Shown here piece by piece: positions 8,315 to 24,701 of a stretch of 34,933 nt of DNA. This DNA comes from Alphaproteobacteria bacterium (GTDB lineage: Bacteria > Pseudomonadota > Alphaproteobacteria > ATCC43930 > CGMCC-115725), in the NCBI GenBank assembly GCA_019237135.1, contig JAFAHQ010000184.1, positions 1-34,933 on the forward strand, written 5' to 3'. A program made the position numbers and the translations under genes. The stretch's first letter is position 1; each line of letters begins with the position of its first letter. The notes beneath the pieces are model-generated. The model saw only the letters and a program-made list of their open reading frames with translations, did not search any database and had not been told where the DNA came from.

Positions 8315-9535
8315 CTAGTGATACGGGTCGGCGGCATCGCGCAACCCGTCGCCGAAAAAGTTGAACGCCAAGACGGTAATGACGACATTTGCCACTGGCA
8401 GCATCAACCATGGGTAAAGTGCTACGACATTAATGTTCTGCGCTTCGTTGAGCAGAACACCCCAGCTCGTCATTGGTGGCCGCAGCCCGAGACCGAGGAA
8501 AGAAAGTGCCGTCTCGCCCAGGATCATCCCCGGGATGACCAAGGTCGCCGAGGCGATCAGATGGCTCATGAAACTTGGTAGGAGGTGCCGGCCGATAATG
8601 CGCGCTGGTCGCGCGCCCATCAGTACCGCGGCGGTGCAGAAGTCCTCCTCGCGCAACGCCAAGAGCTTGGACCGAACGGCTCGGGCAAGGTGGGTCCATT
8701 CGATCATCCCGAGGATCAATGTGATGCCGACGTAAACAAGGATCGGGCTCCAACTAACTGGCAATATCGCCGAAAGCGCCATCCACAGCGGCAAGTGAGG
8801 AAAGGATTGGACAACTTCGATCCCGCGCTGAATCAGGATATCGGTCCAACCGCCATAATAACCGGCGATCCCACCGATCAAGATCCCGAGTGTAAAGCTC
8901 ACGGCAACGCCGAGGAGTCCGACCGTCAGCGAGATCCGCGCCCCATACACCATCCGTGAAAGGAGATCGCGACCGAGCCGATCTGTGCCCAGTAAGAAGA
9001 GCTGCCCGGCGTGGGCCGGGCAAGCAAGATGCAGGTCGGCACGGAACAATCCCCAGAACAAATATTCCTCGCCACGACAAAAGAAACGGATAGTCTGGCG
9101 TTTTTCTGGGTTCGGCGTGTATACCCGCTCGAGAGCCGCCATGTCAAGCCGATAGTCGAACCCATAGACGAAAGGCGGGACAAGTCGGCCATCGTGAAAG
9201 ATCCGCACGCGTTGCGGCGGCGCGAAGATGAAATCGGTGTTGCGCGTGTCGAGACCGTAGGGAGCGAGAAACTCGCAGATCAGAATAGATAGGTACATCG
9301 TCAGCAGGACCGCACCGGATATAACGGCGACCCGGTGGCGGCAAAGCTTCCACCACATCATCCGCCACTGCGACGCCATATAGAAGCGCTCTTGCGCCGG
9401 CGTCATACGCTCGACCGCGTAGGGGTCGAAAGGCGCGTCCGAGACGAAGTGCGCCAGCTCATTGTCGGTGTGAACGGCCGTCGCCTCGTTGCCGCGGCGC
9501 GGCAGGCCGCCGGACGCGAAGGCCAAATCGCTCAT
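8315..9535 (-). CDS. Oligopeptide-type ABC transporter permease (OppC-like)
   Basis: BPD_transp_1-like permease: GTDRLGRDLLSRMVYGARISLTVG, EWTHLARAVRSKLLALREEDF, WGVLLNEAQN. Confidence 0.92.
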   Translation of the reverse strand: MSDLAFASGGLPRRGNEATAVHTDNELAHFVSDAPFDPYAVERMTPAQERFYMASQWRMMWWKLCRHRVAVISGAVLLTMYLSILICEFLAPYGLDTRNTDFIFAPPQRVRIFHDGRLVPPFVYGFDYRLDMAALERVYTPNPEKRQTIRFFCRGEEYLFWGLFRADLHLACPAHAGQLFLLGTDRLGRDLLSRMVYGARISLTVGLLGVAVSFTLGILIGGIAGYYGGWTDILIQRGIEVVQSFPHLPLWMALSAILPVSWSPILVYVGITLILGMIEWTHLARAVRSKLLALREEDFCTAAVLMGARPARIIGRHLLPSFMSHLIASATLVIPGMILGETALSFLGLGLRPPMTSWGVLLNEAQNINVVALYPWLMLPVANVVITVLAFNFFGDGLRDAADPYH

Positions 9536-10530
9536 CGACGTCGGCCCGCCTGCAGGCGGATCCTCGGATCGAGTACGGCGAGCGCAAAATCGGACACGAA
9601 TACGCCGATTACCGTCAAGAATGCCATAAACATCAAGAATGAGCCGGCAAGATACATATCTTGGCTGCGTAGCGCTTCGAGCAGCATCGGTCCGGTGGTC
9701 GGCAAAGACATTACAACCGAGACGATCGCTGCGCCGGAGATAACATGCGGCAATAAAGAGCCAATATCGGAAATAAACGGGTTCAGAGCCATCCGCAACG
9801 GATATTTGAACAACACTTTGAGGGGGGATAGCCCCTTCGCACGTGCGGTCACTACATATTGCTTTTGCAGTTCGTCGAGCAGGTTAGCACGCAGCCGCCG
9901 GATCATGCTTGCGGTTCCCGCCGTACCGATGACAATGACTGGAATCCAGATATGAGCGAGCACAGAAAGCGTCTTGTTCCAAGTCCAAGGCTGATCGACG
10001 TATTGAGGGTCCATCAGGCCGCCGATTGAAATTCCAAAATACACATTCGCCAAGTATAGCAGGACGAGAGCAAGAAGAAAGCTGGGTGTAGCCAGCCCGA
10101 GAAACCCCAGCAACGTCAAACAGTGGTCCGTCCAACTATACTGGTGTGTCGCCGAATAGACACCGATCGGGAAGGCAACGAGGTAGGTAAAGATGATCGT
10201 CGTGAAGGAAACAAGAAAGGTGAGGAAAAGACGATCGCCTACCACTTTCGTAACCGGCAGGTTATAGGTAAATGAGTATCCTAGGTCCCCCCGAAGAAGC
10301 CCGCCGGCCCAATACACGTATTGCTCCCACAGCGGGCGGTCGAAGCCGTACTCGGCCTCCAAAAAATGGATTTTGGCTAGATCTGCCGGTTCGCCCGATT
10401 CCTGCAGCTCGGCGATGTAGGTCGTGAAATAATTGCCCTGGGGCAGGTTGATGATGGTGAAGATCACAATACTGATCGCGATCAAAGTCGGGATCATGAT
10501 CAGGATCCGGTGAACTAAGTAACTAAGCAT
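9532..10530 (-). CDS. Oligopeptide-type ABC transporter permease (OppB-like)
   Basis: N-terminal MLSYLVHRILIMIPTLIAISIVIFTII; RLRANLLDELQKQYVVTARAKGLS EAA-like loop. 4-bp ATGA overlap with the next gene. Confidence 0.92.
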   Translation of the reverse strand: MLSYLVHRILIMIPTLIAISIVIFTIINLPQGNYFTTYIAELQESGEPADLAKIHFLEAEYGFDRPLWEQYVYWAGGLLRGDLGYSFTYNLPVTKVVGDRLFLTFLVSFTTIIFTYLVAFPIGVYSATHQYSWTDHCLTLLGFLGLATPSFLLALVLLYLANVYFGISIGGLMDPQYVDQPWTWNKTLSVLAHIWIPVIVIGTAGTASMIRRLRANLLDELQKQYVVTARAKGLSPLKVLFKYPLRMALNPFISDIGSLLPHVISGAAIVSVVMSLPTTGPMLLEALRSQDMYLAGSFLMFMAFLTVIGVFVSDFALAVLDPRIRLQAGRRR

Positions 10531-10574
10531 AGGGCCGATCTAGCCAGATTTCAGCAATCGTATCCAGTCCGTCG

Positions 10575-12506
10575 TCAGGGATGCACCGGCGTTGAGACGT
10601 CTGAAGACGCCGATTTCGCTCGCGCGTCGGAAGTGTCCAGCCAGAACGTATCCGGCTTGAAGATCCCGAAAAAAGCCCCGGGATCCCAATTGTAGGACCC
10701 TTCTTCCGGGACGTTGCGGAGTCTTTCGCTCACCACCACCGGCTGGAGGACACCCGCAACCGTGCCGATCGAAAAAACCTCATCGGCCCATATCTGCAGC
10801 ATGGCATGCCAAATCCGGGACTGGTCCGCCGGCAGTGCTGCGCCGAGCCAATCCTCGTAGAGCTCCTTCAGCCGCGTCGCAGACGGCAAATCAGGGGATT
10901 CGCCGGCCTTACCCTTCGTCTCATAATATTGACCCCATTTTGGCCATTGCAGCTGCTGTTGACTCGTAGGGGCGAATTCCCAGGGCGACATCTGGGCCGT
11001 CGCAAGACCGTTCTCGATCCCTTTGTCGATCGACATCAACGTCTCACCTGAGAAGACCCGACGCCGGAACAAGGTCAGCTGCAAGGGCTTGGCAAAAAGC
11101 CTTATTCCGATGCGCCGCCAAGAATCGCGTACCAGCTCCAATACGTCCGATTGTTCGGTCGATTCACCTGAATTCTCTACGATGATCTCCATGGGTCGAT
11201 TATCCGGAAGGAGACGCATACCATCACTGTCGCGCTTTGTAAGCCCGATCAAATCGAGAAGGCGGTTGGCCTCACGCGGGTCGAAGTTTGCCCAGGCCGA
11301 GCGATACTCGGGTTCGTAAAGCGGGCTCTGCGGCAAAACCGTGTTCTGTCCCTCGATCGCCAGCCCGAAGTAGATCGCCTGATTGATCTCGTGTCGGTTG
11401 ACCGCCAGCGACAAGGCGCGACGAAAGCGCAGGTCGCGAACTAAGGCCCGCCAAGTCTCATCGTTTACGTTGAGGTTTGGATAAAGAGCGAGCTGACTGC
11501 CTGGACCGGTGCGCCAGAGGTGTACCTTGTAATTGTTGCGCTGCTCGCTTTCTTTGAGAAATGTGTAATTATCGAAGCGCAGATAGCGCGCCTGGAGGTC
11601 GCTCTCGCCCGCGCCCGTTTTTGCCGGGATGATCTTGCTGTCGGCAATCGACATTATGACGCGGTCGATATATGGAAGCTGATGCCCGGCTTCGTCGACA
11701 CGATAATAATAAGGATTTCTTTCGAATATAAACCTATCCGAAGGTGGTTTCGTCTTCAGTATCCAGGGTTCCAAGGATGGCAGGTTAGGGTTGTCGTTGC
11801 GGTACATCGTATCCATCCTGGCATGCAGCGCCGCCCAATTGCGTTGGTTATGTGTTTTGACGAGCGCGTCGAGCGTGACCTTATCAGCGAATTTTTCATG
11901 GAATTGCTTCAGATAATGTGACGGGCAATAGATGTAGAGCGGGTCTGCCCCGGCAAGATTAGGCAGAAACAATGGATTCGGCCGGGTCCAGACGTAGCGA
12001 ACCGTAGTTTCGTCGAGGACTTCGAACCGAGGCATCTCGCCTTGCACCATCATCGATACGGGTAGGCCTGAGGGCGATAACTGGTTATTTTGCGCGACAT
12101 CCTCGAACCAATAGCGGAAGTCCTCGGAGGTAAAGGGATGCCCGTCCGACCATTTGTGTCCGCTACGCAAATGGAGCGTGAAGATCCGGCCATCTTGGAC
12201 ATCCGCCGAGGTCAGGATATCGGGCACGAGGGTCAGCGCAGGTGTATAACCCACCAGCCGTGCATACCCGTAAACCACCATCATACGGGTGTCCTTTGGC
12301 CCGCCCATCAACATCCGCAACTCGCCGCCGGGATTGCCGATTGTTTCGGATCCCGCCACCTCCGGGTCGCTTGGCAACCGTTCGTTAACCCTGGACAGCT
12401 TTCCGCTGGCTACTTCCTGCGTGAAAAACGGCGACTCCTGCAGCTCGCCTCGCACTGTGCTGGGAACTGCTATCGAGAGAGCCAAGACGAGGCCGATCGT
12501 CTTCAC
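10575..12506 (-). CDS. ABC transporter substrate-binding protein, family 5 (peptide/Opp type)
   Basis: SBP_bac_5-like sequence (LVPDILTSADVQDGRIFTLHLRSGHKWSDGHPFTSEDF). GTG start at 12506 preceded by GGGAGGAG, giving a signal peptide VKTIGLVLALSIAVPSTVRG; the ORF extends to 12572. Confidence 0.9.
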   Translation of the reverse strand: MKTIGLVLALSIAVPSTVRGELQESPFFTQEVASGKLSRVNERLPSDPEVAGSETIGNPGGELRMLMGGPKDTRMMVVYGYARLVGYTPALTLVPDILTSADVQDGRIFTLHLRSGHKWSDGHPFTSEDFRYWFEDVAQNNQLSPSGLPVSMMVQGEMPRFEVLDETTVRYVWTRPNPLFLPNLAGADPLYIYCPSHYLKQFHEKFADKVTLDALVKTHNQRNWAALHARMDTMYRNDNPNLPSLEPWILKTKPPSDRFIFERNPYYYRVDEAGHQLPYIDRVIMSIADSKIIPAKTGAGESDLQARYLRFDNYTFLKESEQRNNYKVHLWRTGPGSQLALYPNLNVNDETWRALVRDLRFRRALSLAVNRHEINQAIYFGLAIEGQNTVLPQSPLYEPEYRSAWANFDPREANRLLDLIGLTKRDSDGMRLLPDNRPMEIIVENSGESTEQSDVLELVRDSWRRIGIRLFAKPLQLTLFRRRVFSGETLMSIDKGIENGLATAQMSPWEFAPTSQQQLQWPKWGQYYETKGKAGESPDLPSATRLKELYEDWLGAALPADQSRIWHAMLQIWADEVFSIGTVAGVLQPVVVSERLRNVPEEGSYNWDPGAFFGIFKPDTFWLDTSDARAKSASSDVSTPVHP

Positions 12507-12540
12507 ACCGCTCCTCCCTATCGGTTTTTCGTCTCTCCAA

Positions 12541-14448
12541 TTATGCCGAGACGGCGTTGCTGGCCTGAGCAACCCTCGCAGACGGCGACATCCTGGCCTC
12601 CACCCAATGGTCTGGACCGATCTCGATGAGAGGCGGTGCGTTCAACGGTTCACGGCGAAACGGCTCGGGCCAAGAGGCCGGGTCCGAGGCTTTGTCCTCC
12701 ATTAACCGGTGGAAGTCGAGGGAGCGCGACGGGTCAGGCGTGGGCACGGCCGCGAGCAGGGCCAAGGTGTAGGGATGGACTGGGTTGCGAAACAGCGTTG
12801 CGCGATCGGCGATTTCGACGATCCGACCGGCACACATGACTGCGATACGATCGGCAATATAGTCGATAACCGCGAGGTTGTGGGAAATGAAAAGGTACGT
12901 GAGCGAGAGCTTTTTCTTCAAATCCACTAACAGATTGAGAATCTGCGCTTGGATCGAAACGTCGAGCGCCGATGTCGGCTCATCGCAGATCACTAGATCA
13001 GGCCGCAACGCAAGGGCGCGCGCAATACCGATGCGCTGGCGCTGACCTCCGGAAAAGCTGTGGGGGTAACGTTTGAGATGGCGGGGGTCGAGGCCAACGA
13101 GGATGACCAGTTCATGCACCATCTCACGACGCGAGCGAACATCACCGATCCCGTGGATCACGAGTGGCTCTTCGATGATATCATAGACCGTCATCCGCGG
13201 GTTCAGCGATCCGAACGGGTCCTGGAAGATGAATTGCACCTGCCGCCTAAACCGCTTCAAATCCTCGCCATCCAGACGGAGCACATCGATGAGCCTTCCG
13301 CGGTCGTTGAAGCGGATCGCTCCTGAATCGGGTGATACAGCCCGCAGCAGCAGTTTGCTCAAAGTCGTTTTCCCGCACCCACTCTCGCCGACCAGCCCAA
13401 GACACTCGCCGCGCTCGATTCTCAGGCTGATCCCATCGACGGCAACGACTTGAGGACCCGATCGTCCGCCTCCAAACCACCCGCTCTTGCGGATGGTAAA
13501 GGTCTTTCGTACGCCGACGCACTCGACCAGCGGGCCATCTGCACCAACTGGCCATTCCGCTTTTTCGGCCATCAGATGCGGCGCATCTCCAGGGCGGATT
13601 TCGCGGATTGGGACGAGACGCTCGCCGGGCTTCATGTCGAAGTGGGGAACGGCCCGCAGCAGCGCCCGCAGATAAGGATGCTCCGCTTGACGAAAGATAT
13701 CATCGAGGGTACCGCTCTCCATGACCTCGCCGTGGTACATCACCACAATTTCCTCGGCGACATTGGCAACGACACCAAGGTCGTGGGTGATCAACAGCAC
13801 TGCCATGCTGAGCTCATGTTGGAGCTCTATGATCAGCTTAAGGATTTGCGCCTGGATGGTCACATCGAGCGCGGTCGTCGGCTCGTCAGCAATCAGCAGC
13901 GCGGGGCGGCAGACCAGCGCCATTGCAATCATAGCGCGCTGACGCAGCCCGCCGGACAGCTCAAAAGGGTAGCTACGCAGAGCCCGCTTGGGGTCTGGAA
14001 ATCCAACGAGTCGCAGCATCTCCTCCGTCAATTCAGAGGCTTGTGCAGCGCTCACTGGTCGATGGAGGCGCAGCGCTTCGCTGACCTGATTGCCGATGGT
14101 ATGAACGGGGGACAACGAGGTCATAGGCTCTTGGAAAATGATCGAAATGCGCCCACCTCGGATCGCTCGCATCTGCGGACCATTGTCCGGCAGTTTCACG
14201 AGATCGACGACCTCGCCGTCGAGCCGGGGATCAGTAAACAAGATCTCGCCGCGGGTGATCACCCCGCTACGCGGCAGGATGCGGAGGATGGTCTGACTGA
14301 CCACCGACTTTCCTGAGCCGGATTCGCCGACGAGCGCCACGGTTGATCGCGGTCGCACGCGGAACGAAACTCCCCTAACCGCCCGGATAAAGCCGCCTGG
14401 GGCGGCGAAGCGAACATGAAGGTCGCGGATTGTGAGGAGATCGGTCAA
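12541..14448 (-). CDS. Fused dual-ATPase Opp-type ABC transporter ATP-binding protein (OppD-OppF-like)
   Basis: Two NBDs: Walker A GESGSGKS and GESGCGKT; signatures LSGGLRQR and FSGGQRQR; Walker [13 protein letters not shown] and [12 protein letters not shown]. Confidence 0.95.
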
Positions 14449-14975
14449 ACTGGATGCCCTCCCACGTGCGGGATGCGGGGCTCGGTGTGTAGACTGACCC
14501 CAAGGGCAGCCAGATTGGCTAAGGTGGTCGCGTTAAGTGTTAACCCGCAGGAGTGCGCAGTTCTAGCCGACTTATCAACCAGCTCGGCAAAACCCTCGAT
14601 CCGGCTGTCCAACTTTACCTTCGTCCGGCCGGAGCGAAGTTCGAGTTGCATCCAGCCGTCGCGCCGGTCGCGGCGAGTGGAATAATAAGCGAGCGTCATA
14701 CGATCGAGCTTCCCCCAAGTGATCGAGGCACGACGCAGTCCCGACGCCCGCAGAGCCGACTTAGTCATCTCGAAACGGGTCCCGTGGCGAAGTATCGTGC
14801 GCACGCCGAATACCGCAAAGAGTGCTGCAAAGCCGCTCAACACCGTGGCGGCAACCACGCCGATGGGCATGATCACGAGGATTGCTGCGGTCGGGACGAA
14901 CCCGGCAGCGGCGCGGAGATAATCACCATACATAGCTGAAGTCGGGTACGCGTAACGGGTCATCGCCTGGGTCAC
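14445..14975 (-). CDS. Small membrane protein with possible PH-like domain
   Basis: Hydrophobic segments AAAGFVPTAAILVIMPIGVVAATVLSGFAALFAVFGV, then a soluble region (RFEMTKSALRASGLRRASITWGKLDRMTLAYYSTRR) like bacterial PH/YdbT-type domains. 4-bp overlaps with both neighbours. Confidence 0.6.
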   Translation of the reverse strand: MTQAMTRYAYPTSAMYGDYLRAAAGFVPTAAILVIMPIGVVAATVLSGFAALFAVFGVRTILRHGTRFEMTKSALRASGLRRASITWGKLDRMTLAYYSTRRDRRDGWMQLELRSGRTKVKLDSRIEGFAELVDKSARTAHSCGLTLNATTLANLAALGVSLHTEPRIPHVGGHPV

Positions 14976-15781
14976 AGGGCGTCCGCGAATACTTCCGCGG
15001 CATCGAGCCAGCTTGTCGCAGGGTGTACCTGGGTGATTGCGATGAGCTTGGAAAGGAATGCATCTGTCGCCTCGTCCTGCACTAGGTGGTGCGTCAAGAT
15101 TCCGGTTGGCTCCTCGGCGTCGACTTCGCCAAGGCGACGGGCCTGCAAGTGTCTAACGATGCCACCTAGCGCCGCTTCTTCACCTATAAAACCGCGATCC
15201 TCTGCCCACGCGACGAGATCGATATGAACGTTGACCTCGGTGATGCCCGGCGCCGGCCAAGGGGTGCCCCGCGGCTTTACGCGTGAGATCGCGCTGAGGC
15301 CGCAAGAGGGGAGGAGCGGCAGAAAACAAGAAGCAAAGCGATTCCAGGGCGGCGTCAAGACCGGGAGCGCGCGGGTCCCGAACAACGTGGTTAGTATCTT
15401 TCGGCCCGCCGTCAGCTCGGATCTCACAACGTGGCAGGGACGTTCCGCTGGAAACTCATTCTTCTTGCCGTCGATGGAACGGCTCGTGTGGCGCCATCCG
15501 TGTTGCAAGACAAAGAGGCGGCTCGCTTCACGGGGCCGAGACGGGTGAGCAACCCATGCAGCAAGTCCTGGGTCCGCAGTCGCTGGAATCACGGCGAGCG
15601 AAATCGGGACGTCGCCTGCGGTAGAAACCAAGCGGTCCAGGCGGCAGCTTGCCATCACCGCGTCGTCATCACGCCACCAGAGGGTCGCGGTACGGCCTCC
15701 CTCTCCCCATTGGTCGAACTCGCCGACCAGATCCGACCATCCTGCTGTCCTCACCAAATCTTCGCGCAGCAAAGACCTCAT
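14972..15781 (-). CDS. Polysaccharide deacetylase-like protein
   Basis: WWRDDDAV, QHGWRH, PPWNR and THH motifs match NodB-like deacetylase active-site segments. Confidence 0.7.
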   Translation of the reverse strand: MRSLLREDLVRTAGWSDLVGEFDQWGEGGRTATLWWRDDDAVMASCRLDRLVSTAGDVPISLAVIPATADPGLAAWVAHPSRPREASRLFVLQHGWRHTSRSIDGKKNEFPAERPCHVVRSELTAGRKILTTLFGTRALPVLTPPWNRFASCFLPLLPSCGLSAISRVKPRGTPWPAPGITEVNVHIDLVAWAEDRGFIGEEAALGGIVRHLQARRLGEVDAEEPTGILTHHLVQDEATDAFLSKLIAITQVHPATSWLDAAEVFADAL

Positions 15782-16995
15782 GCGCCGATAATACCGCCGG
15801 CCGACCGTGATACAAAATTTCCGTTCGTGCGCCCGATAACACTCGCGGGATCACGGATGATGTTCGCGATTAGGCGGGCCGAACGGCGTGCCCCGCCCGT
15901 GTCGACCGAAATCGTCAGAGGATCGCGCCTGATCGCGCGTTGGACAGCTTTAGCGAGTCGTGTGGGGGTAAGCAGAGGCTCCGGAATCATTTCCAGCGCC
16001 CCACGGGCAGCCAAGCGCTCCGCTCGCAACTGTTGTTCGGTTTCCCGCTCGGATGCGAACGGCACGACCACGGCTCGAGCGCCGGCCGCGAGTATGTCGA
16101 GAATAGTATTATATCCGGCTTGGCTCACCGATACGCGACAGCGCCGCAGCATTTGGGGGAATTCCTGGCGATAGCGCTCGAGGACCACATCCTCGGGCAA
16201 AGCATCCGCGAGTGTGCCAAACGCCGGCTCTGGCAAGTTGGGTCCGGCGAGCAGACGCCAAGTGAGACTGGCGAGGCAGCCGCGTCGCCTCGCCTCAAGC
16301 GCCGTCGATAAAAGAGCGGTGCCGACCGCACCGCCGCCAACCGAGACCAATACCTCGTTCGCCCCCACGGTCTCATCTCCTCCAACGGCCTGATCTGGGT
16401 CACCGATGTAACCAGTATAGATAAGACGGTCGGCGATCTCGGATACGGCAGAGAAACTCGCGCCCAGAGATATAAAGGCCGGATCTCCATGAACGAGCAC
16501 GAAGTCGAAATCGGAACGCACCCGATCGACGATCTCGCGCAGGCGGCTCGCATCGTCGGGTACGACTACAATGTCCCGAACAGAACACAGAATTCGCGGT
16601 CGCGGACAGCGCGATCGCGCCGCTTTGATCAGCGCTTCAATCTCGAAGCGGAACGCGCGCCGCCCGAATGGAAATGCTTCGATTACGACCGCATCGGGCC
16701 GGGCCGACTTGAAGGCGGCAAGCAGCGCGTTCCGACGAGCTTGTTGCAGTTTTTCGTCGATCGGCTGGCCGTCCGGACCAACAAGTTCTTTGAAGGTCGC
16801 GTCGCGAGCTTTGATCGGCGCGAGCTGAACAATGCGCGCGGACTGCGTACAGAGGGGTCCTAGGGGAGGTTCTCCGCCTGAGACCAGGGTAACCCCGATC
16901 CCTTCCCGCGCGACCGCGTCGGCAATCCGGAAAGTGCGCTGCATGTGCCCGATGCCGAGCAGGTGCTGGACGTAAAACAGGACGGAGGCGTTCAC
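15778..16995 (-). CDS. MurG/COG4671-like glycosyltransferase
   Basis: VLFYVQHLLGIGHMQRTFRIADAVAREGIGVTLVSGG N-terminus; C-terminal RCRVSVSQAGYNTILDILAAGARAVVVPFASERETEQQLRAERL. Confidence 0.8.
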   Translation of the reverse strand: MNASVLFYVQHLLGIGHMQRTFRIADAVAREGIGVTLVSGGEPPLGPLCTQSARIVQLAPIKARDATFKELVGPDGQPIDEKLQQARRNALLAAFKSARPDAVVIEAFPFGRRAFRFEIEALIKAARSRCPRPRILCSVRDIVVVPDDASRLREIVDRVRSDFDFVLVHGDPAFISLGASFSAVSEIADRLIYTGYIGDPDQAVGGDETVGANEVLVSVGGGAVGTALLSTALEARRRGCLASLTWRLLAGPNLPEPAFGTLADALPEDVVLERYRQEFPQMLRRCRVSVSQAGYNTILDILAAGARAVVVPFASERETEQQLRAERLAARGALEMIPEPLLTPTRLAKAVQRAIRRDPLTISVDTGGARRSARLIANIIRDPASVIGRTNGNFVSRSAGGIIGA

Positions 16996-17034
16996 GAAAT
17001 CTTACCGAAAGAATTGCCACAGTCCGCACCCACC

Positions 17035-17054
17035 GGCCTCCTGGTCAGGAGGCC
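17035..17054. other. Inverted repeat / hairpin between two glycosyltransferase genes
   Basis: GGCCTCCT-GGTC-AGGAGGCC: perfect 8-bp stem with a 4-nt loop in the 75-bp gap. No T-tract on either side. Confidence 0.6.
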
Positions 17055-17070
17055 TGTCTCCACGCTTGTA

Positions 17071-18177
17071 TCACGCTGCACAAGGACGACAGACCGCATC
17101 GATCACCGCAGCCAGTCGACGAGCAGCGGCCGGGAGATCATGCTCCACGAGTACGCGCCGCCGCGCCGCTTTTGCGAACACCGACCGCCGACCGCGATTG
17201 AGGATCACACTACGCACCGCCGCAGCAAAGGCAAGGGCGTCACCAGGCGCAACGAGAAGTCCAGTGACCTCCGGCACGACGATTTCTCCAACTCCACCGA
17301 CTGCCCCGGCCACCACGGGCAACCCACTGGCCTGCGCCTCGAGCAGCGCCATGCCATAGGCTTCGTTGCAGGCGGGCCAGACGAAGAGATCCGCCACGGC
17401 AAGTCGCTCCGCGATCGCCGCATGGTCGAGCGACCCCATCCAGGTCACCCGCTCGTTGAGCGGCGCGAGTGCATTCTCAGCATCGCGTCGGGCCGGACCG
17501 TCGCCGACCACTTCCAACGACCAAGGCAAATCGAGCAGATGAGACAGCGAGTCACCCAGAAGGCGATACGAGGCGAGCTTGTCGCCCTGGCGCATCATCG
17601 CGACCGTTATCAGGCGGGGCGGCCCGCCCGCCGGTTTCCATATTTGACCGTAGCTCGCCGCATCGACAAACGGCTTGAGGGCAGCCCAGCGCCAAGGCTC
17701 CCGCAGCAACGGCAAGATGCATTCCCGATCTTTCGAGTTCAGTCCGATTACCGCGTCAGCTTTTCGGATCGCGCTTTCGGCGGCGCGATGGCCCACCGCC
17801 CAAGCACCGCATCTCTGTGTCGGGGTCACGGAAGCCTCGGCGATGACATACGGGATGCCAAGCCTGCCCGCGATTGTCGGCCCCAACCAATCGGGCGCCT
17901 TGTGATAGACATGATAAGAGAACCAAAGTTCTGGCGTAAATTCAGGAAACGCTTGGTAGTGGCGGAGAAGACGGTCCGCGATCCGCTCTCCGAGTACGGC
18001 GAGTCGGGCCTGTCGAGGCGCGTCGCCACACCCCTCAAAGCTGCGAAAGCGTGAGACGAGAATGGGCTCATGTTTGACAAGGCGTAAGGCGGCGAGGAAG
18101 AGCTGCGCAATTTGACGATCACCCGACGGGACCGGATGATCAGGCGGTTTCAACGGCGCGTAGAAGCCGATGCGCAT
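17071..18177 (-). CDS. Glycosyltransferase, family 4 (GT-B)
   Basis: EVVGDGPARRDAE, VADLFVWPACNEAYGMALLEAQASGLPVVAGAVGGVGEIV. Start MRIGFYAPLKPPDHPVPSGDRQIAQLFL proposed at 18177. Confidence 0.88.
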   Translation of the reverse strand: MRIGFYAPLKPPDHPVPSGDRQIAQLFLAALRLVKHEPILVSRFRSFEGCGDAPRQARLAVLGERIADRLLRHYQAFPEFTPELWFSYHVYHKAPDWLGPTIAGRLGIPYVIAEASVTPTQRCGAWAVGHRAAESAIRKADAVIGLNSKDRECILPLLREPWRWAALKPFVDAASYGQIWKPAGGPPRLITVAMMRQGDKLASYRLLGDSLSHLLDLPWSLEVVGDGPARRDAENALAPLNERVTWMGSLDHAAIAERLAVADLFVWPACNEAYGMALLEAQASGLPVVAGAVGGVGEIVVPEVTGLLVAPGDALAFAAAVRSVILNRGRRSVFAKAARRRVLVEHDLPAAARRLAAVIDAVCRPCAA

Positions 18178-18244
18178 GCGCCTAGGACCATGCTGTTGAG
18201 CTATTTCTACAACCGTTGAGGCAGGAGAACGGAGAACCGGCTGC

Positions 18245-19573
18245 CTACAAAACCGCATCTACCCCAAGGCGATGGGTATCGCGCAACGACCGGGAGGCAT
18301 CCCGCAAACTAAGCGGCCGCCCATTGGCCGGAAGCAGTCCAAAGCGCACCGCGAGCACATCGATCCCAGATTTCATAGCGAAGTTGCGGTGCACGCGGCG
18401 TTCCCCAGCGGCGCCCAGCACCGCACGCCTTGAGGGATCGCGGATTAGCGCGCTCATGGCTTGAGCAAGCCCGACCGGGTCATCGGGAGGCACGAGCAAC
18501 CCCGTCACTCCTTGCTCGACCAACTCGGGGATCCCTGATACATCGGTTGCAACACACGCGAGCCGCTGGCTCTGTGCCTCGAGCAAGACGTTCGGTAGGC
18601 CATCGCGGTCGCCGTCCTTCGCTACTTTCGAGGCGAGCACAAACAGATCCGCTTGACGATAAGCAGCGAGCACGTCGGGTTGGGCCAAGGCGCCGCGCCA
18701 TTCGATGCGGTGCGACAGACCCAGACGCCGGGCTCGATTGGTCAGCGCGGTCGAGAGCACGCCCCCGCCGACATGGATAAAACGCCATTCGAGGCGGCTC
18801 GGCAAAAGCGCAAGTGCATCCAGCAGATCGTCATAGCCCTTCTTGGCGACCAGCCGGCCGACCGAGACGATAATGACAGGATGCTCGAGATCGCTGCCGT
18901 CCGCGCCCTTTGAGCGGATCGGGGGCGGCGGAAATCGCTCAAGGTCGAGCCCATGATAGCAGAGTGTAACCGCATCCGGGCGCGAAGCGAGGTTGGCGAG
19001 ATGACTGCGCCCGGCCTCGGTGCAGGTTACCACCCAGCTCGCCTCGGCAAGCTTTTTGCGCTTCTCCCATGCCGGAAGCGTCCAGATGTCCTTGGCGTGC
19101 GCTGAAACCGTCCATCTGAGACCGACAGTCATGGCGGCATAGCGGGCGACGGAGGCCGGGGTATGGAGGAAATGCGCGTGGAGATGGTTGACGTCTGCGG
19201 GAAGCTCCGCCACCAGCACCATGGCTTGGCCGAAGCGGCGGATACGGTTCGGGGTCGGGTCCCGCCACAAATCCGCGAGCCACGCAGATCTGGCTGCGCC
19301 GTAGCCCGGCAGCCGGCGCGAGCGCCGCCAGCCGCGCCACACCCGGTGGGGCTCCTGGTATAAATATTCCGGAAGATAGAGCAGCGCGGCGTGGATCAAC
19401 TGCTGGACCGGATGCGTGGCGCGATCTGTCGGGTGGCGCAGCGACACGATCAGGATTTCGAGCCCGCGTCGCTCGAGAGCAGCGATTTCTTGAGCGATAA
19501 AGGTCTCGGAAAGCCGCGGATACCCTTTCAGAACGAAGGCGACGCGACCGGGGCCTCCGGGGAATGGCTGCAC
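18245..19573 (-). CDS. Glycosyltransferase, family 4 (colanic acid/WcaL-like)
   Basis: KGYPRLSETFIAQEIAALERRGLEILIVSLR, SVGRLVAKKGYDDLLDAL, GLPNVLLEAQSQRLACVATDVSGIPELVEQGVTGLLVPPDDP. GTG start at 19573 proposed; the ORF extends to 19636. Confidence 0.9.
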   Translation of the reverse strand: MQPFPGGPGRVAFVLKGYPRLSETFIAQEIAALERRGLEILIVSLRHPTDRATHPVQQLIHAALLYLPEYLYQEPHRVWRGWRRSRRLPGYGAARSAWLADLWRDPTPNRIRRFGQAMVLVAELPADVNHLHAHFLHTPASVARYAAMTVGLRWTVSAHAKDIWTLPAWEKRKKLAEASWVVTCTEAGRSHLANLASRPDAVTLCYHGLDLERFPPPPIRSKGADGSDLEHPVIIVSVGRLVAKKGYDDLLDALALLPSRLEWRFIHVGGGVLSTALTNRARRLGLSHRIEWRGALAQPDVLAAYRQADLFVLASKVAKDGDRDGLPNVLLEAQSQRLACVATDVSGIPELVEQGVTGLLVPPDDPVGLAQAMSALIRDPSRRAVLGAAGERRVHRNFAMKSGIDVLAVRFGLLPANGRPLSLRDASRSLRDTHRLGVDAVL

Positions 19574-19578
19574 CGACC

Positions 19579-20805
19579 TTAGGCCTCGAGACGCTCGCGG
19601 GCCGCAAAGCAGCCAGCCCTGCCCTCGTCGAGCCATCTTCGCGCACGCCGATTGACGGTTCGCATGCCGTCCAGCAACCCCGGGATCATCGCGGTCGAGG
19701 GCGGCGGCTGCTCGGTCAGCCGCCGGATTGCCCCCGCCATCACTCTGGGGTCGCGTCCCTCTTCCTCGGGAAGCATCGTCAGAAGGCCGAGTTCGGCAGC
19801 GCGTCGCGCCCTGATGAACTGCTCGAGACGGGGGGCTGTTCGCGGCACGATCAGCGCTTTCTTGTCGAAGGACAGAATTTCGCAGAAGGTGTTGTAACCA
19901 CCCATCGCGACCACGCCGGCGGCGCGCGCCATCAGTGACTCGAGGCGGGCGTTAAAGGTGATCGTCCGGACGTTCTCGAGACGCGCGGCACGGCTTGCGA
20001 ACCACGCTCGTTGCTCGGGTTGCATGAAGGGCCCGAAGACGATCAGTGCAGGCAGCGGCATGGCTCGGTCATGTTCGTAAACTGCCAACACCAAATCGAT
20101 CAGCGCTTCGCCGTCGCCTCCGCCGCCGGGTGTCACCAGCACGAAATCCCTTTCGAGAAGATCCAGAATATCGGGGGTAGCCTGAGGCTCGGACGCGCTG
20201 CGTCGAAGATAACCGGTGTAGGTCATCCGGCGTCGCACGCTGGTCGGCACCGGAAGCCCCGCGAGTGGATCGCAGATTTCCGGCAGGCCGTATACCCAGA
20301 TATCGTCGTAATACTCCGCCAGCGCCGGGACCGCTTGCTTGCGTTCCCACTCGCTCTCGAGCGCCTCGGGATCGTCCATCACGTCGCGCAATCCCAGGAC
20401 CAGCGCCGTCCCGCGGCGTTGCAATAAATCCAACGTGTCGCGCACCTCGCCGCGCAGTCCCAAGGGCTCCTTGTCGACGATCAAGAGATCGGGGTCGAAG
20501 ATGTCTGCGGTATGGCGGATAATCGAGGAGCGCATCGCCAGGGTCTCCTCGATATCGATGTGCAAACTAAGCGAGACATATTCTCCGTTGCGCAGCTTGA
20601 TCACCCCCGGCACGCGCACAAAATCGACGCGAGAGCGGAAATCGAAACTGCCGATGATCGGCGACCCGGAAAGAATCAGCACCGAAACGGCAGGGTCCTC
20701 ATCCACGAGGGAATGAGCGATTGCCCGACAGCGACGCAAATGCCCAAGCCCGAAGCTATCGTGGCTATAGACGAGCACCCGTTTATGGTGACGGCGAACG
20801 GTCAC
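19579..20805 (-). CDS. MurG/COG4671-like glycosyltransferase
   Basis: RVLVYSHDSFGLGHLRRCRAIAHSLV N-terminus; AAGVVAMGGYNTFCEILSFDKKALIVPRTAPRLEQFIRARRAAELG donor-site-like C-terminus. Confidence 0.82.
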   Translation of the reverse strand: MTVRRHHKRVLVYSHDSFGLGHLRRCRAIAHSLVDEDPAVSVLILSGSPIIGSFDFRSRVDFVRVPGVIKLRNGEYVSLSLHIDIEETLAMRSSIIRHTADIFDPDLLIVDKEPLGLRGEVRDTLDLLQRRGTALVLGLRDVMDDPEALESEWERKQAVPALAEYYDDIWVYGLPEICDPLAGLPVPTSVRRRMTYTGYLRRSASEPQATPDILDLLERDFVLVTPGGGGDGEALIDLVLAVYEHDRAMPLPALIVFGPFMQPEQRAWFASRAARLENVRTITFNARLESLMARAAGVVAMGGYNTFCEILSFDKKALIVPRTAPRLEQFIRARRAAELGLLTMLPEEEGRDPRVMAGAIRRLTEQPPPSTAMIPGLLDGMRTVNRRARRWLDEGRAGCFAARERLEA

Positions 20806-20875: not shown

Positions 20876-23686
20876 ATGAAGGCGATCGCCGTCAAAGGAG
20901 TGTCAGCGCTGCTCAGCACCGCCGAAGAGGCCCTTCGGCCGGCACGGTATTGGCTCGGATTTGCCCCATGGCGGCACAAAGCAGCGGCTCCCGCACCGGC
21001 GAGGAAGCCGAAACCGGAAGCCGAAGACCCGAGCGCGCTGGAGCCGACACTCTATCGCTTCATTCTTCGGCACAGCTTAGGGGCACAGATTTTTCTTCTC
21101 GTGCTGACGCTTATCTCTTTCCCCTTTCTTTACTATTCGCTCCTGCTCCCGAAAACGATTACCGACGGCGCGATCAAAGGCGGCAAACAGTTTCCACTGC
21201 ACATTCTGGGGTTCGAGCTTGATCAGATCAGCTATTTGATGGTCCTCTGCGCCGCGTTTTTGGGTCTCGTTTTTATAAACGGCGGATTCAAATACTACAT
21301 CAATACTTACAAAGGACGGCTCGGAGAACGGATGCTGCGGCGGTTCCGTTATCAGCTGTATCAGCGTATGTTGCTGTTCCCACTGTCGTATTTTCATAAG
21401 AACTCGTCAGCCCAGATCATTCCGATGATCACCGTTGAGTGCGAGCAGCTGGGCGGGTTCATCGGCGACTCGTTTGTTACCCCGCTGTCCAACGGGGGCC
21501 AGTTGCTGACGAATATTTTCTTCATGTTCATGCAGGATTGGATCCTCGGCTTGGCGGCGGTCGCGCTATACCCCGTGCAGGGCTACTTGATCCCGAAATT
21601 GCAGTTCAAGGTAAACCAACTCGCCAGGCGCCGGGTGCGCACGATCCGCCAGGTAGCCGACCGCGTCCAGGAATCGGCGACCGGCATTGCCGACATCCAA
21701 GCCAATGACAACGCTCGCCTTCAACTGAGCGGTTTTGCCCATCTGCTGGGCACGATTTACGACATCCGCTTCGAGAGCTATCAACGCAAATTTTTTGTCA
21801 AGTTCCTAAACAACTTTTTGGGACAACTAACACCCTTCTTTTTCTTTTCGATTGGCGGTTACCTGGTGCTCATAAATAAGCTTTCTGTGGGCGCGCTCGC
21901 GGCGGTGCTTCTCTCCCAAAGGGAGCTGGCGTCGCCGTGGAATGAACTGCTCGGCTTTTATCAGATCTTCCAGACCTCCAAGATCACGTACGAGCAGATC
22001 GTCGAGCAATTCCAGCCCGCCGGCATGATGGATGCTCGGCTCCAGCTCGAGGAGCCGGGCGTGGTGACGCCGCTGACCGGCGAACTCGTCGTCGCCAATT
22101 TGTCGCTCGCCGAGGACGGCGGTAGCCGCATACTCGACGGCATCACCTTCAGCGTCCCGCTGGAAGCACATGTAGCAGTCATCGGCCAAGGCGGCAGCGG
22201 CAAAAACGAGCTTGCTCTGGTGCTCGCGCGCCTGACCCGGCCGACAAGCGGCCGCATACTGATCGGCGGCATGGACCTTGCCGCCCTGCCGACCGCCGTA
22301 ACCGGCCGCCGGATCGGCTATGCCGGGGCGGCTCCCTATCTGTTTGCCGGAACCTTACGCGACAATCTTTTGCTCGGCCTGCGCCACCGCCCGATCCGAC
22401 CGGCCGAATACGATCCGGGGAGCGACAAACGTCGTTCTTCCCAGATCTACGAAGCGCGGCGGTCCGGCAACATCGACTTCGACCTTCACGCCGACTGGCT
22501 TGATTACGAGAGCGCCGGGGTCGCCGACAAAGCGGGTCTATCGGCGCGCATAACCGAAGTTCTGGCCCGTCTCGATTTCGACGAGGTCGTCTACACTTTG
22601 GGGCTGCGTTGGCGGCTTGATCCCGAAGCCCAGTCCGAAGCAGCTGCACGGCTTCTCGAAGCGCGCAGGACGCTTGCCCGTCGGCTCAGTGAGGACGGCA
22701 TCGCCAACCTCGTTGAGACTTACGACGCCGATCGGTTCAACCTCAACGCATCGGTCGCGGAGAACCTGCTCTTCGGAACTCCGATCGGTCCGGCCTTCGA
22801 CTTCGAGGCGCTCGCCGACAATACCTACGTGTTGCAGGTTCTGACCAAGGTCGGGCTGATCGACGACCTCGTCGAAGTCGGTAAGCAGGTGGCCGAGACG
22901 ATGATCGAATTGTTCGCCGACCTGCCAGCCGATCACGAGTTCTTCGAACAATTCAGCTTTATCAGCGCGACCGACCTGCCGGAGTTCGTCGCGATCCTCG
23001 GGCGCATCGGCGCCGATGGGACGAGGGCACTCTCCAGAGCCGATCGCACCAAGCTGCTCTCGTTGCCGTTCAAGCTCATCCCGGCGAGACACCGGCTCGA
23101 CGTTCTCGACCAGACGATGCAAGACCGCTTGCTCGAGGCGCGCAAGGTGTTTCGAGCCGATCTTCCGGCGGAGGCGCAGTCGCAGATCGAGTTCTTTGAT
23201 GCGGAGCGCTATAACGCGGCCGCCTCGGTACAGGACAATATCCTGTTTGGTAAGATCGCTTATGGCGAGGCCGACGCACCGGTCCGCGTTCCTTCCGCGG
23301 TTGCCGAGGTGGTCGACGAGTTGTCCCTGCGGCAAACCATCATCGAGGTCGGGCTCGAGTACAATGTCGGGACCGGCGGATCGCGGCTGTCTTTCGCCGA
23401 GCGCCAAAAGGCGGGGATAGCCCGCGAGGTGCTCAAGCGTCCTGATCTCTTGATCCTCAACGAGGCGACCTCGGCGCTCGACGGACAGGGGCAGTCGAGA
23501 GTGACCAAGGGCTTGAAGGACGAGTTTGCGGGTCGAGGCATCATTTGGGTGCTGCATCGAGCCAACCTCGCCAAGGACTTCGATCGCGTTCTCGTTCTCA
23601 GCAATGGCAAGTTGGAGGAGCAAGGCGCGCCGTCCGAGCTCGACGGCAACGGGTCGCTGATGTCCTTGCTGATCGCCGCCGAATGA
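20876..23686 (+). CDS. ABC exporter (TMD-NBD fusion) with enlarged, atypical nucleotide-binding domain
   Basis: ABC_membrane-type N-terminal half, then an NBD with Walker A GQGGSGKN, signature LSFAE, Walker B LLILNEATSALD, H-loop VLHR; about 240 extra residues between the Q-loop region and the signature. Confidence 0.9.
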   Translation: MKAIAVKGVSALLSTAEEALRPARYWLGFAPWRHKAAAPAPARKPKPEAEDPSALEPTLYRFILRHSLGAQIFLLVLTLISFPFLYYSLLLPKTITDGAIKGGKQFPLHILGFELDQISYLMVLCAAFLGLVFINGGFKYYINTYKGRLGERMLRRFRYQLYQRMLLFPLSYFHKNSSAQIIPMITVECEQLGGFIGDSFVTPLSNGGQLLTNIFFMFMQDWILGLAAVALYPVQGYLIPKLQFKVNQLARRRVRTIRQVADRVQESATGIADIQANDNARLQLSGFAHLLGTIYDIRFESYQRKFFVKFLNNFLGQLTPFFFFSIGGYLVLINKLSVGALAAVLLSQRELASPWNELLGFYQIFQTSKITYEQIVEQFQPAGMMDARLQLEEPGVVTPLTGELVVANLSLAEDGGSRILDGITFSVPLEAHVAVIGQGGSGKNELALVLARLTRPTSGRILIGGMDLAALPTAVTGRRIGYAGAAPYLFAGTLRDNLLLGLRHRPIRPAEYDPGSDKRRSSQIYEARRSGNIDFDLHADWLDYESAGVADKAGLSARITEVLARLDFDEVVYTLGLRWRLDPEAQSEAAARLLEARRTLARRLSEDGIANLVETYDADRFNLNASVAENLLFGTPIGPAFDFEALADNTYVLQVLTKVGLIDDLVEVGKQVAETMIELFADLPADHEFFEQFSFISATDLPEFVAILGRIGADGTRALSRADRTKLLSLPFKLIPARHRLDVLDQTMQDRLLEARKVFRADLPAEAQSQIEFFDAERYNAAASVQDNILFGKIAYGEADAPVRVPSAVAEVVDELSLRQTIIEVGLEYNVGTGGSRLSFAERQKAGIAREVLKRPDLLILNEATSALDGQGQSRVTKGLKDEFAGRGIIWVLHRANLAKDFDRVLVLSNGKLEEQGAPSELDGNGSLMSLLIAAE
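22721..23251 (+). repeat. Repeated protein-coding segment inside the ABC NBD
   Basis: YDADRFNLNASVAENLLFG (22721-22777) and FDAERYNAAASVQDNILFG (23195-23251), each preceded by RLLEAR(R/K). GTLRDNLLLG (22349-22378) is a third, shorter occurrence of the same motif. Confidence 0.75.
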
Positions 23687-23711
23687 CCGAGATGGGCATG
23701 GGAGGAAAAGA

Positions 23712-24194
23712 ATGAGCCTGAAGGAAGAATTCGAGCTGCTTCGTCGCGTGCCGATCTTTGCGGAGATCGAGCCCTCCAAGCTGAAATTGTTGGCCTTCAT
23801 GAGCGAGCGGATCGGCTTCGATCCCGGCAAACGGCTGGTGCAGCAGGGCGACTCCGCCGACGCGGCATATCTGATCATCGACGGCCATGCCGAGGTCGTC
23901 CTCGAAACCGCTGCCGGACCGGTGGTCGTCGCGACACTTGGCGCCAACGAAACCGTCGGGGAGATGGGGATATTGGGCGACGTGCCGCGCAACGCGACGG
24001 TCCGTGCCAAAGATCGGCTCATCGTTTTGCGCATCTCCAAGGACCCGTTCATGCGGATGGTGCGCGAATTCCCGAACATGGCAGTCTCGATCATGCGGGA
24101 ACTGGCGCAGCGGCTCGATGCGACGAACCATCAGCTGAGCGCGGCGCTCGCCGAAGTTAAACGATTGCGCGATCAAGCCGGCATCGCCGCCTGA
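23712..24194 (+). CDS. Cyclic nucleotide-binding domain protein without HTH
   Basis: LLRRVPIFAEIEPSKLKLLAF...LVQQGDSADAAYLIIDGHAEV...VGEMGILGDVPRNATVRA matches the Crp/cNMP fold; about 40 residues follow with no DNA-binding domain. GGGAGG upstream of the ATG. Confidence 0.9.
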   Translation: MSLKEEFELLRRVPIFAEIEPSKLKLLAFMSERIGFDPGKRLVQQGDSADAAYLIIDGHAEVVLETAAGPVVVATLGANETVGEMGILGDVPRNATVRAKDRLIVLRISKDPFMRMVREFPNMAVSIMRELAQRLDATNHQLSAALAEVKRLRDQAGIAA

Positions 24195-24701
24195 TTGCTC
24201 GTGAGCCGGCTCGACAGCTTTATCCGCCGCCTCAAGGCGCAGCGCGCATGCCTCGATCTGGCAGCCCGTCTAATCGCGGAATTGGATGGGGACGTCCTCG
24301 AGTTGGGGCTCGGCAACGGCCGGACCTACGACCATCTGCGCTGGCTTTTTCCAGACCGGAAAATATACGTCTGCGAGCGGAGCGTTGCCGCCCACCCCGA
24401 TTGCGTGCCGCCGCCCGAACTCCTCATCCTGGGCGACATGCGTGATACCTTGCAAACAGCCCACGAGCTGCTTGGAGGTCGTATGGCTCTCGCCCATCTC
24501 GACCCTTCTACTGGGGACAGTGTGGCAAGCAAAGCACTCGCGGCGGAGGTTGCACCCCTAATCCTGCTGCTTCTGCGTCCAAGCGGGTTGCTGGTCAGCG
24601 AGCCTGCGATCGCCGACGATCGGCTGGTCCCCTTACCGCTACCAGAAAGGGTCGCTCAAGGCCGTTATAATATCTACCGGTACGTCAGTTGCCGATCGTA
24701 A
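24195..24701 (+). CDS. Class I SAM-dependent methyltransferase
   Basis: RLDSFIRRLKAQRACLDLAARLIAELDGDVLELGLGNGRTYDHLRWLFPDRKIYVCER: SAM-binding motif I, resembling the small Methyltransf_17-type family. TTG (24195) or GTG (24201) start directly after the upstream stop. Confidence 0.78.
   Translation: MLVSRLDSFIRRLKAQRACLDLAARLIAELDGDVLELGLGNGRTYDHLRWLFPDRKIYVCERSVAAHPDCVPPPELLILGDMRDTLQTAHELLGGRMALAHLDPSTGDSVASKALAAEVAPLILLLLRPSGLLVSEPAIADDRLVPLPLPERVAQGRYNIYRYVSCRS

Follow-up and report, generated by a model that had tools for sequence, protein, structure and literature searches.

A class-wide alphaproteobacterial family of ABC-exporter-like proteins with a repeated Q-loop segment, degenerate catalytic motifs and a conserved cyclic-nucleotide-binding partner

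The window (the whole stretch of DNA analysed, 34,933 nucleotides) encoded an ABC-exporter-like protein of 936 aa (20876–23686, + strand) with a triplicated Q-loop/helical segment. This protein is a member of an unnamed, class-wide family and is not a strain oddity. The repetition of the segment inside the nucleotide-binding domain (NBD) was well supported. The designation of the NBD as a pseudo-ATPase was also well supported by the sequences, although the absence of ATPase activity itself is inferred. The original prediction had been drawn from this one protein, and its extension to a class-wide family was supported by the homologous sequences.

The source contig (C271) belonged to an alphaproteobacterial assembly, which was 77% complete and consisted of 423 contigs. 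The transmembrane domain (residues 55–390; 21038–22045, +) matched ABC_membrane (PF00664, E 5.3e-18) and had the type IV exporter fold according to Foldseek. In the whole protein, Pfam placed ABC_membrane at residues 106–346 and ABC_tran at residues 420–527. The latter match was truncated (model positions 1–88 of 137), as the C-terminal half of the NBD was located some 300 residues further on. Pfam gave these two domains only, and the C39 peptidase domain was absent. The best Foldseek matches of the protein were TmrAB, MsbA and TM287/288, with E values down to 4e-19. Thus, the domain arrangement of the type IV exporters, in which an NBD of the exporter fold is joined C-terminally to ABC_membrane, was present according to Pfam, AlphaFold2 and Foldseek. 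No NCBIfam model fitted the protein, and the best one was MsbA (193.6 bits versus a cut-off of 602 bits). An antisense ORF of 518 aa (22538–24094, −) overlapped the ABC gene and the gene following it, and similar ORFs recurred in the relatives; it is best explained as a shadow of the high-GC coding sequence.

The catalytic motifs of the NBD were compared with their consensus forms. Walker A was GQGGSGKN (22184–22207, +), in which the final residue was N and the consensus GxxGxGK[S/T] was not met. The Q-loop YAGAAPYLF (22319–22345, +) had A485 in the position where Gln was expected. The signature was degenerate, LSFAE instead of LSGGQ (23387–23401, +). Walker B was LLILNE (23447–23464, +), in which the Asp of the Asp–Glu pair was lost to N862 and the catalytic Glu (E863) was kept. 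Only the H-loop passed, with the His H894 of WVLH (23555–23557, +). These readings, which had been given in the original prediction, were all verified letter by letter. The canonical exporters of the same genome had intact motifs (GPSGAGKST, the Q-loop Gln, LSGGQ or LSxG, and LDE); hence, the deviation of the 936-aa protein was not a genome-wide property.

The NxLxG motif occurred three times in the NBD, as had been predicted. Copy 1 (22319–22378, +) consisted of the strand, the Gln-less Q-loop with A485 and the helix GTLRDNLLLG, with NxLxG at 22349–22378. Copy 2, LVETYDADRFNLNASVAENLLFG (22709–22777, +), had NxLxG at 22748–22777 and contained N630. Copy 3, IEFFDAERYNAAASVQDNILFG (23186–23251, +), had NxLxG at 23222–23251 and contained N788, and its distance to the signature was the canonical one. 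Of the motif positions proposed earlier, 22349 was right, whereas 22721 and 23195 were the starts of the longer blocks. The proposed spacing of 474 bp between the last two blocks was right, and RLLEAR was located at 22649 and 23126. The estimate of about 240 extra residues was too low. The distance from NxLxG copy 1 to the signature was 336 residues, compared with about 40 in the canonical exporters of the same genome, so that roughly 295 residues between them were extra. The 936-aa protein therefore shares the order of ABC_membrane and NBD with MsbA, TmrAB and TM287/288 but differs from them in these extra Q-loop-to-signature residues, which are partly repeated NBD segments. It also differs in having no intact catalytic site and in scoring far below every NCBIfam cut-off shown.

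The repetition was evaluated by comparing family profiles with HHalign, in which unit 1 was residues 395–602, unit 2 was 603–760 and unit 3 was 761–936. Units 2 and 3 aligned over 62 columns with a score of 59.8 (P 3.3e-9), whereas the maximum over 200 column shuffles was 21, and the match took in the helices after NxLFG. The score for units 1 and 3 was 29.6 (P about 1e-4; shuffle maximum 18.1, n = 60). The direct similarity of units 1 and 2 was borderline (30.5 versus a shuffle maximum of 30.3). Moreover, a six-frame search with the insert profile independently retrieved unit 3 via unit-2 positions 107–168 (E = 6.2e-6). In comparisons with NBDs of canonical exporters from the same genome, unit 1 covered canonical positions 4–105 (P 9e-25), its end lying within the Q-loop helix. 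Unit 3 covered positions 78–241 (P 2.6e-36) and started before the Q-loop strand. Positions 78–105 were covered by both units, indicating that the segment was truly duplicated, without any internal repeat being assumed. The score of unit 2 against the canonical NBD profile was 19.4, which was inside the shuffle range (maximum 28.1). Hence, the link of unit 2 with the NBD rested on unit 3 alone. Furthermore, about 65–70 residues of unit 2 (about 677–745; FADLPADHEFFEQFSFIS to about 745) had no counterpart in the other units. Chance repetition of the motif was excluded by the shuffle-tested profile scores. A global repeat of whole units, with the "AR" helix as the equivalent of the signature helix, was suggestive by eye and by secondary structure but received no support from the global alignment of units 1 and 2 (P 0.028).

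The AlphaFold2 model, which was a monomer without the cyclic-nucleotide-binding (CNB) protein, had a mean pLDDT of 81.9, and about 90 over the NBD and the insert. The same strand–loop–helix–strand pattern was predicted at all three copies (E480–483/H494–502/E503–508; E613–615/H627–632/E634–636; E771–773/H785–790/E792–794). The proposal that the helical subdomain had been duplicated or triplicated inside one NBD was supported by the profile comparison together with these repeated elements. Two outcomes that would have refuted it did not occur, namely, a lack of self-similarity, given the match of units 2 and 3, and an unrelated insertion in the predicted structure, given the repeated pattern of the insert. 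The family-specific insert comprised 269 aa (residues 504–772; 22385–23191, +) in alignment A2 of 64 homologues. In isolation, it was predicted to fold with a pLDDT of 87. No relative was found in a PDB fold search with the isolated insert (best E 0.86), and a PDB sequence search with the insert returned chance-level matches only (E 0.08 and 0.77). The length of the insert was nearly constant across the family, and the lobe residues W541, D543, E614, N630, H687 and H739 were among the most conserved of the C-terminal half.

When the GTDB contigs were searched with the protein, 388 encoding stretches were confirmed, of which the best 80 were kept. Nearly all of the titles were alphaproteobacterial. 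One exception (L106) was titled "Mycobacterium sp. KBS0706", was very like the Inquilinus copies and is probably a misnamed isolate; the other (L096) was titled "Anaerolineae bacterium" and is probably a misbinned contig. Of the 378 good genomes sampled from the class, 143 (about 38%) had a match to the insert profile, as did 92 of 264 genera. In a phylum-wide draw, every match to it besides the own genome fell in the same class. Many Rhizobium plasmids carried members, among them Rhizobium etli p42e (RHE_RS24195) and R. johnstonii pRL11 (RL_RS29995), and these were annotated as, for example, "ABC transporter ATP-binding protein". No pseudo-ATPase family of such kind, and no such locus, was described in the literature searched. 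Insertion data for pRL110043/44 were set aside, as these are probably MFS and hypothetical genes beside the locus, judging from gene order and product; this is not proven. A separate observation concerned a second paralogue in the own genome (G000 C4:15662–15901, L067). Of its unit 2, about 80 aa (FDRYNANSPVAANLLFGTPIGSVF) were present before the frame was lost. The fragment adjoined a WbaP-like sugar transferase and an MFS-type gene. Second paralogues were intact in sister genomes (L031, L032, L035), and the fragment is apparently a pseudogene remnant.

ABC exporters are textbook ATP machines, and the degenerate ones described so far retain one working site or more. The state of the catalytic motifs across the family was counted in 127 aligned sequences. 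The selection of homologues started from the 936-aa protein; thus, the motif frequencies describe the sampled set only. The Walker A Ser/Thr position was occupied by Asp or Glu in 79/127 and by Ser/Thr in 20/127, and the Q-loop Gln was present in 19/127. The two Gly positions of the signature were rarely retained. The Walker B Asp position was Asp in 16/127 and Asn in 85/127, the catalytic Glu was found in 84/127 and the H-loop His in 62/127. After weighting, the frequencies were 49% for the Walker A Lys, about 16% for Ser/Thr, 12% for the Q-loop Gln, 19% for the Walker B Asp, 53% for the catalytic Glu and 39% for the H-loop His. The weighted frequencies for the Asn of the repeat copies were 99% (N497), 100% (N630) and 96% (N788), the rest being gaps. 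The Walker A K–S/T and the Walker B D–E were jointly kept in only two of the 127 homologues (L070 and L048), and the motifs of L070 were nearly complete. Co-variation between the Walker A Ser/Thr and Walker B Asp positions, i.e., a possible swap of the acidic residue, was unsupported (Fisher P 0.28).

Changes were also mapped by Fitch parsimony on a midpoint-rooted FastTree tree that was built from the membrane domain only, so that the change counts are minima. Each catalytic position changed at least 11–19 times, and the NxLxG Asn changed 1, 0 and 0 times in copies 1, 2 and 3; N788 was present in 121/121 tree sequences. The Walker A Lys, Walker B Asp, catalytic Glu and H-loop His were all lost in R. 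etli (GSGAEAF, FNRP, VLSN) while the locus was intact, and the sampled Rhizobium branch was wholly without the Walker A Lys. Hence, decay in a single strain, with homologues retaining canonical motifs, was excluded by the degenerate motifs and repeated changes throughout the family. This outcome would have refuted the earlier suggestion of a non-canonical, ATPase-weak NBD. That suggestion has support at the sequence level and was strengthened by the family-wide degeneration, with the activity itself being untested.

The ABC gene was followed by a gene for a CNB protein of 160 aa (23712–24194, +; PF00027). This partner was conserved, being encoded directly 3′ of the ABC gene or fused to it in 76 of the 77 loci with enough flank. 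A C-terminal fusion occurred in eight members (L048, L060–062, L065, L066, L126 and L137). The phosphate-binding cassette of the CNB proteins (GE and R[TN]A) retained Gly in 79/80, Glu in 77/80, Arg in 80/80 and Ala in 80/80. The partner thus had the G-E ... R-S/T-A cassette of the CRP/cNMP-binding family, without any ligand data. The own genome had 23 matches to class III nucleotidyl cyclases (PF00211). In L126 and L137, the fusions were extended about 150–180 aa past the CNB domain, and the extension was degenerate-GGDEF-like by eye. A CNB-type domain is also linked to an ABC exporter in HetC, in which this domain is essential and bound ppGpp and not cAMP, and in which the ATPase catalytic residue is essential (PMC10986499). 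The ligand of the CNB partner is uncertain for this reason. HetC further differs in having a C39 peptidase and an N-terminal CNB domain, whereas the CNB of the present family is separate or C-terminal, its cassette is intact and no peptidase is present. The evidence on regulation points to the CNB partner at least as much as to the extra lobes, and the regulation by the lobes that had been suggested earlier is unproven.

The CNB gene was followed by a Methyltransf_17 protein (24195–24701, +) in 59/75 loci. Upstream and divergent were two GT28-like glycosyltransferases (19579–20805, −, the divergent neighbour; 15778–16995, −) and two GT4 glycosyltransferases (18245–19636, −; 17071–18258, −), with matches in 50–52 of 53 loci. 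A polysaccharide-deacetylase-like protein (14972–15781, −), judged from the orthologue sequence, was matched in 44/53 loci, and a conserved 176-aa protein of unknown family (14445–14975, −) in 42/53; neither of these two proteins matched a Pfam or NCBIfam model. An oligopeptide-type ABC importer with fused ATPases, a binding protein and two permeases came next (8315–14448, −). Its ATPase gene was found in 43/53 loci, and in R. etli and R. johnstonii the family gene was likewise flanked by the whole importer. A histidine phosphatase gene located between the glycosyltransferases in 51/53 related loci was missing from the window (15778–18258, −), and only distant phosphatases were found elsewhere in the own incomplete genome. 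The gene order was conserved from Rhizobium to SAR116.

The ATP site was lost many times, in contrast to the repeated lobe, the gene neighbourhood and the CNB site, all of which were kept. This asymmetry favours a pseudo-ATPase ABC-exporter frame that is gated by CNB and serves glycoconjugate assembly or export. This reading is tentative and falls short of being probable. The computations establish the repeats, the catalytic decay across the family, the linkage and fusion of the CNB, its conserved cassette and the glycosyltransferase locus, whereas the absence of ATPase activity, the homodimer, the docking, the gating and the substrate are all inferred. The frame would be of the homodimer type, with its NBD turned into a pseudo-ATPase. 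Two added copies of the Q-loop strand, NxLFG helix and helical hairpin would have formed the large conserved helical lobe. The pseudo-NBD dimer may not drive transport by ATP hydrolysis and may instead be a structural and regulatory platform, on which the adjacent or fused CNB subunit would dock at the lobe. Binding of a cyclic or related nucleotide to the CNB subunit would then open or close the exporter-fold membrane domain, which may pass or present a glycoconjugate that the glycosyltransferases encoded nearby would make. In a stronger and rather unlikely form of the idea, the cyclic nucleotide would replace ATP throughout the class-wide family, and the pseudo-NBD dimer, enlarged by the tandem copies of its helical segment and opened or closed by CNB, would amount to a flippase or channel that is built on the ABC-exporter fold and gated by cyclic nucleotides. 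An ATP-binding switch or slow ATPase, in which ATP is tightly bound without Mg-dependent turnover and the protein is still an ATP-dependent exporter, is possible but doubtful. The 936-aa protein keeps the Walker A Lys, the catalytic Glu and the His, so that slow hydrolysis or stable ATP binding could occur. By weight, the P-loop glycines were kept at 82% (G437) and 84% (G442), Lys or Arg at about three quarters and the Glu as given above, and the P-loop region was predicted with a pLDDT above 90. Degenerate sites elsewhere bind ATP stably, and the exporters concerned (TM287/288, TAP and CFTR) retain one canonical site (PMC7756269). As in the present family, their fold and ABC-type membrane domain persist after the loss of catalytic residues. 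However, the same degenerate NBD would supply both sites of a homodimer here, whereas the known cases pair a degenerate site with a canonical one. Moreover, whole branches of the family are without the Walker A Lys, and several, including Rhizobium, have lost Lys, Glu and His together while keeping the lobe and the CNB partner.

A canonical site could also be supplied by a second subunit, with the 936-aa protein being the regulatory half of a heterodimer and a canonical ABC half being encoded elsewhere. There are well-known heterodimeric exporters with a degenerate subunit, and the own genome has canonical exporters. However, the two halves of heterodimeric bacterial exporters usually share one operon, and the conserved neighbours of the family members included no canonical exporter half. 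A partner elsewhere is not excluded, and the arrangement is considered improbable. A pure scaffold, in which the frame does not transport and the enlarged lobe, controlled by CNB, assembles the glycosyltransferases at the membrane, would agree with the high conservation of the lobe residues named above and with the four glycosyltransferases conserved alongside. It is nevertheless quite unlikely, as conservation was also high in the membrane domain, where many polar residues were invariant, which points to a functioning path or gate. The degenerate motifs might finally reflect relaxed decay of a gene without function or a misread sequence. The open reading frames, which were full-length in hundreds of genomes, the invariant lobe residues, the constant insert length and the conserved gene order refute this at the family level, and it deserves hardly any credence.

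Hundreds of genes annotated simply as "ABC transporter ATP-binding protein" are probably misnamed. The family marks out a conserved, apparently unstudied locus of the glycoconjugate type. Furthermore, it would make directly testable whether an ABC frame is able to work without hydrolysis, and what powers or gates that frame.
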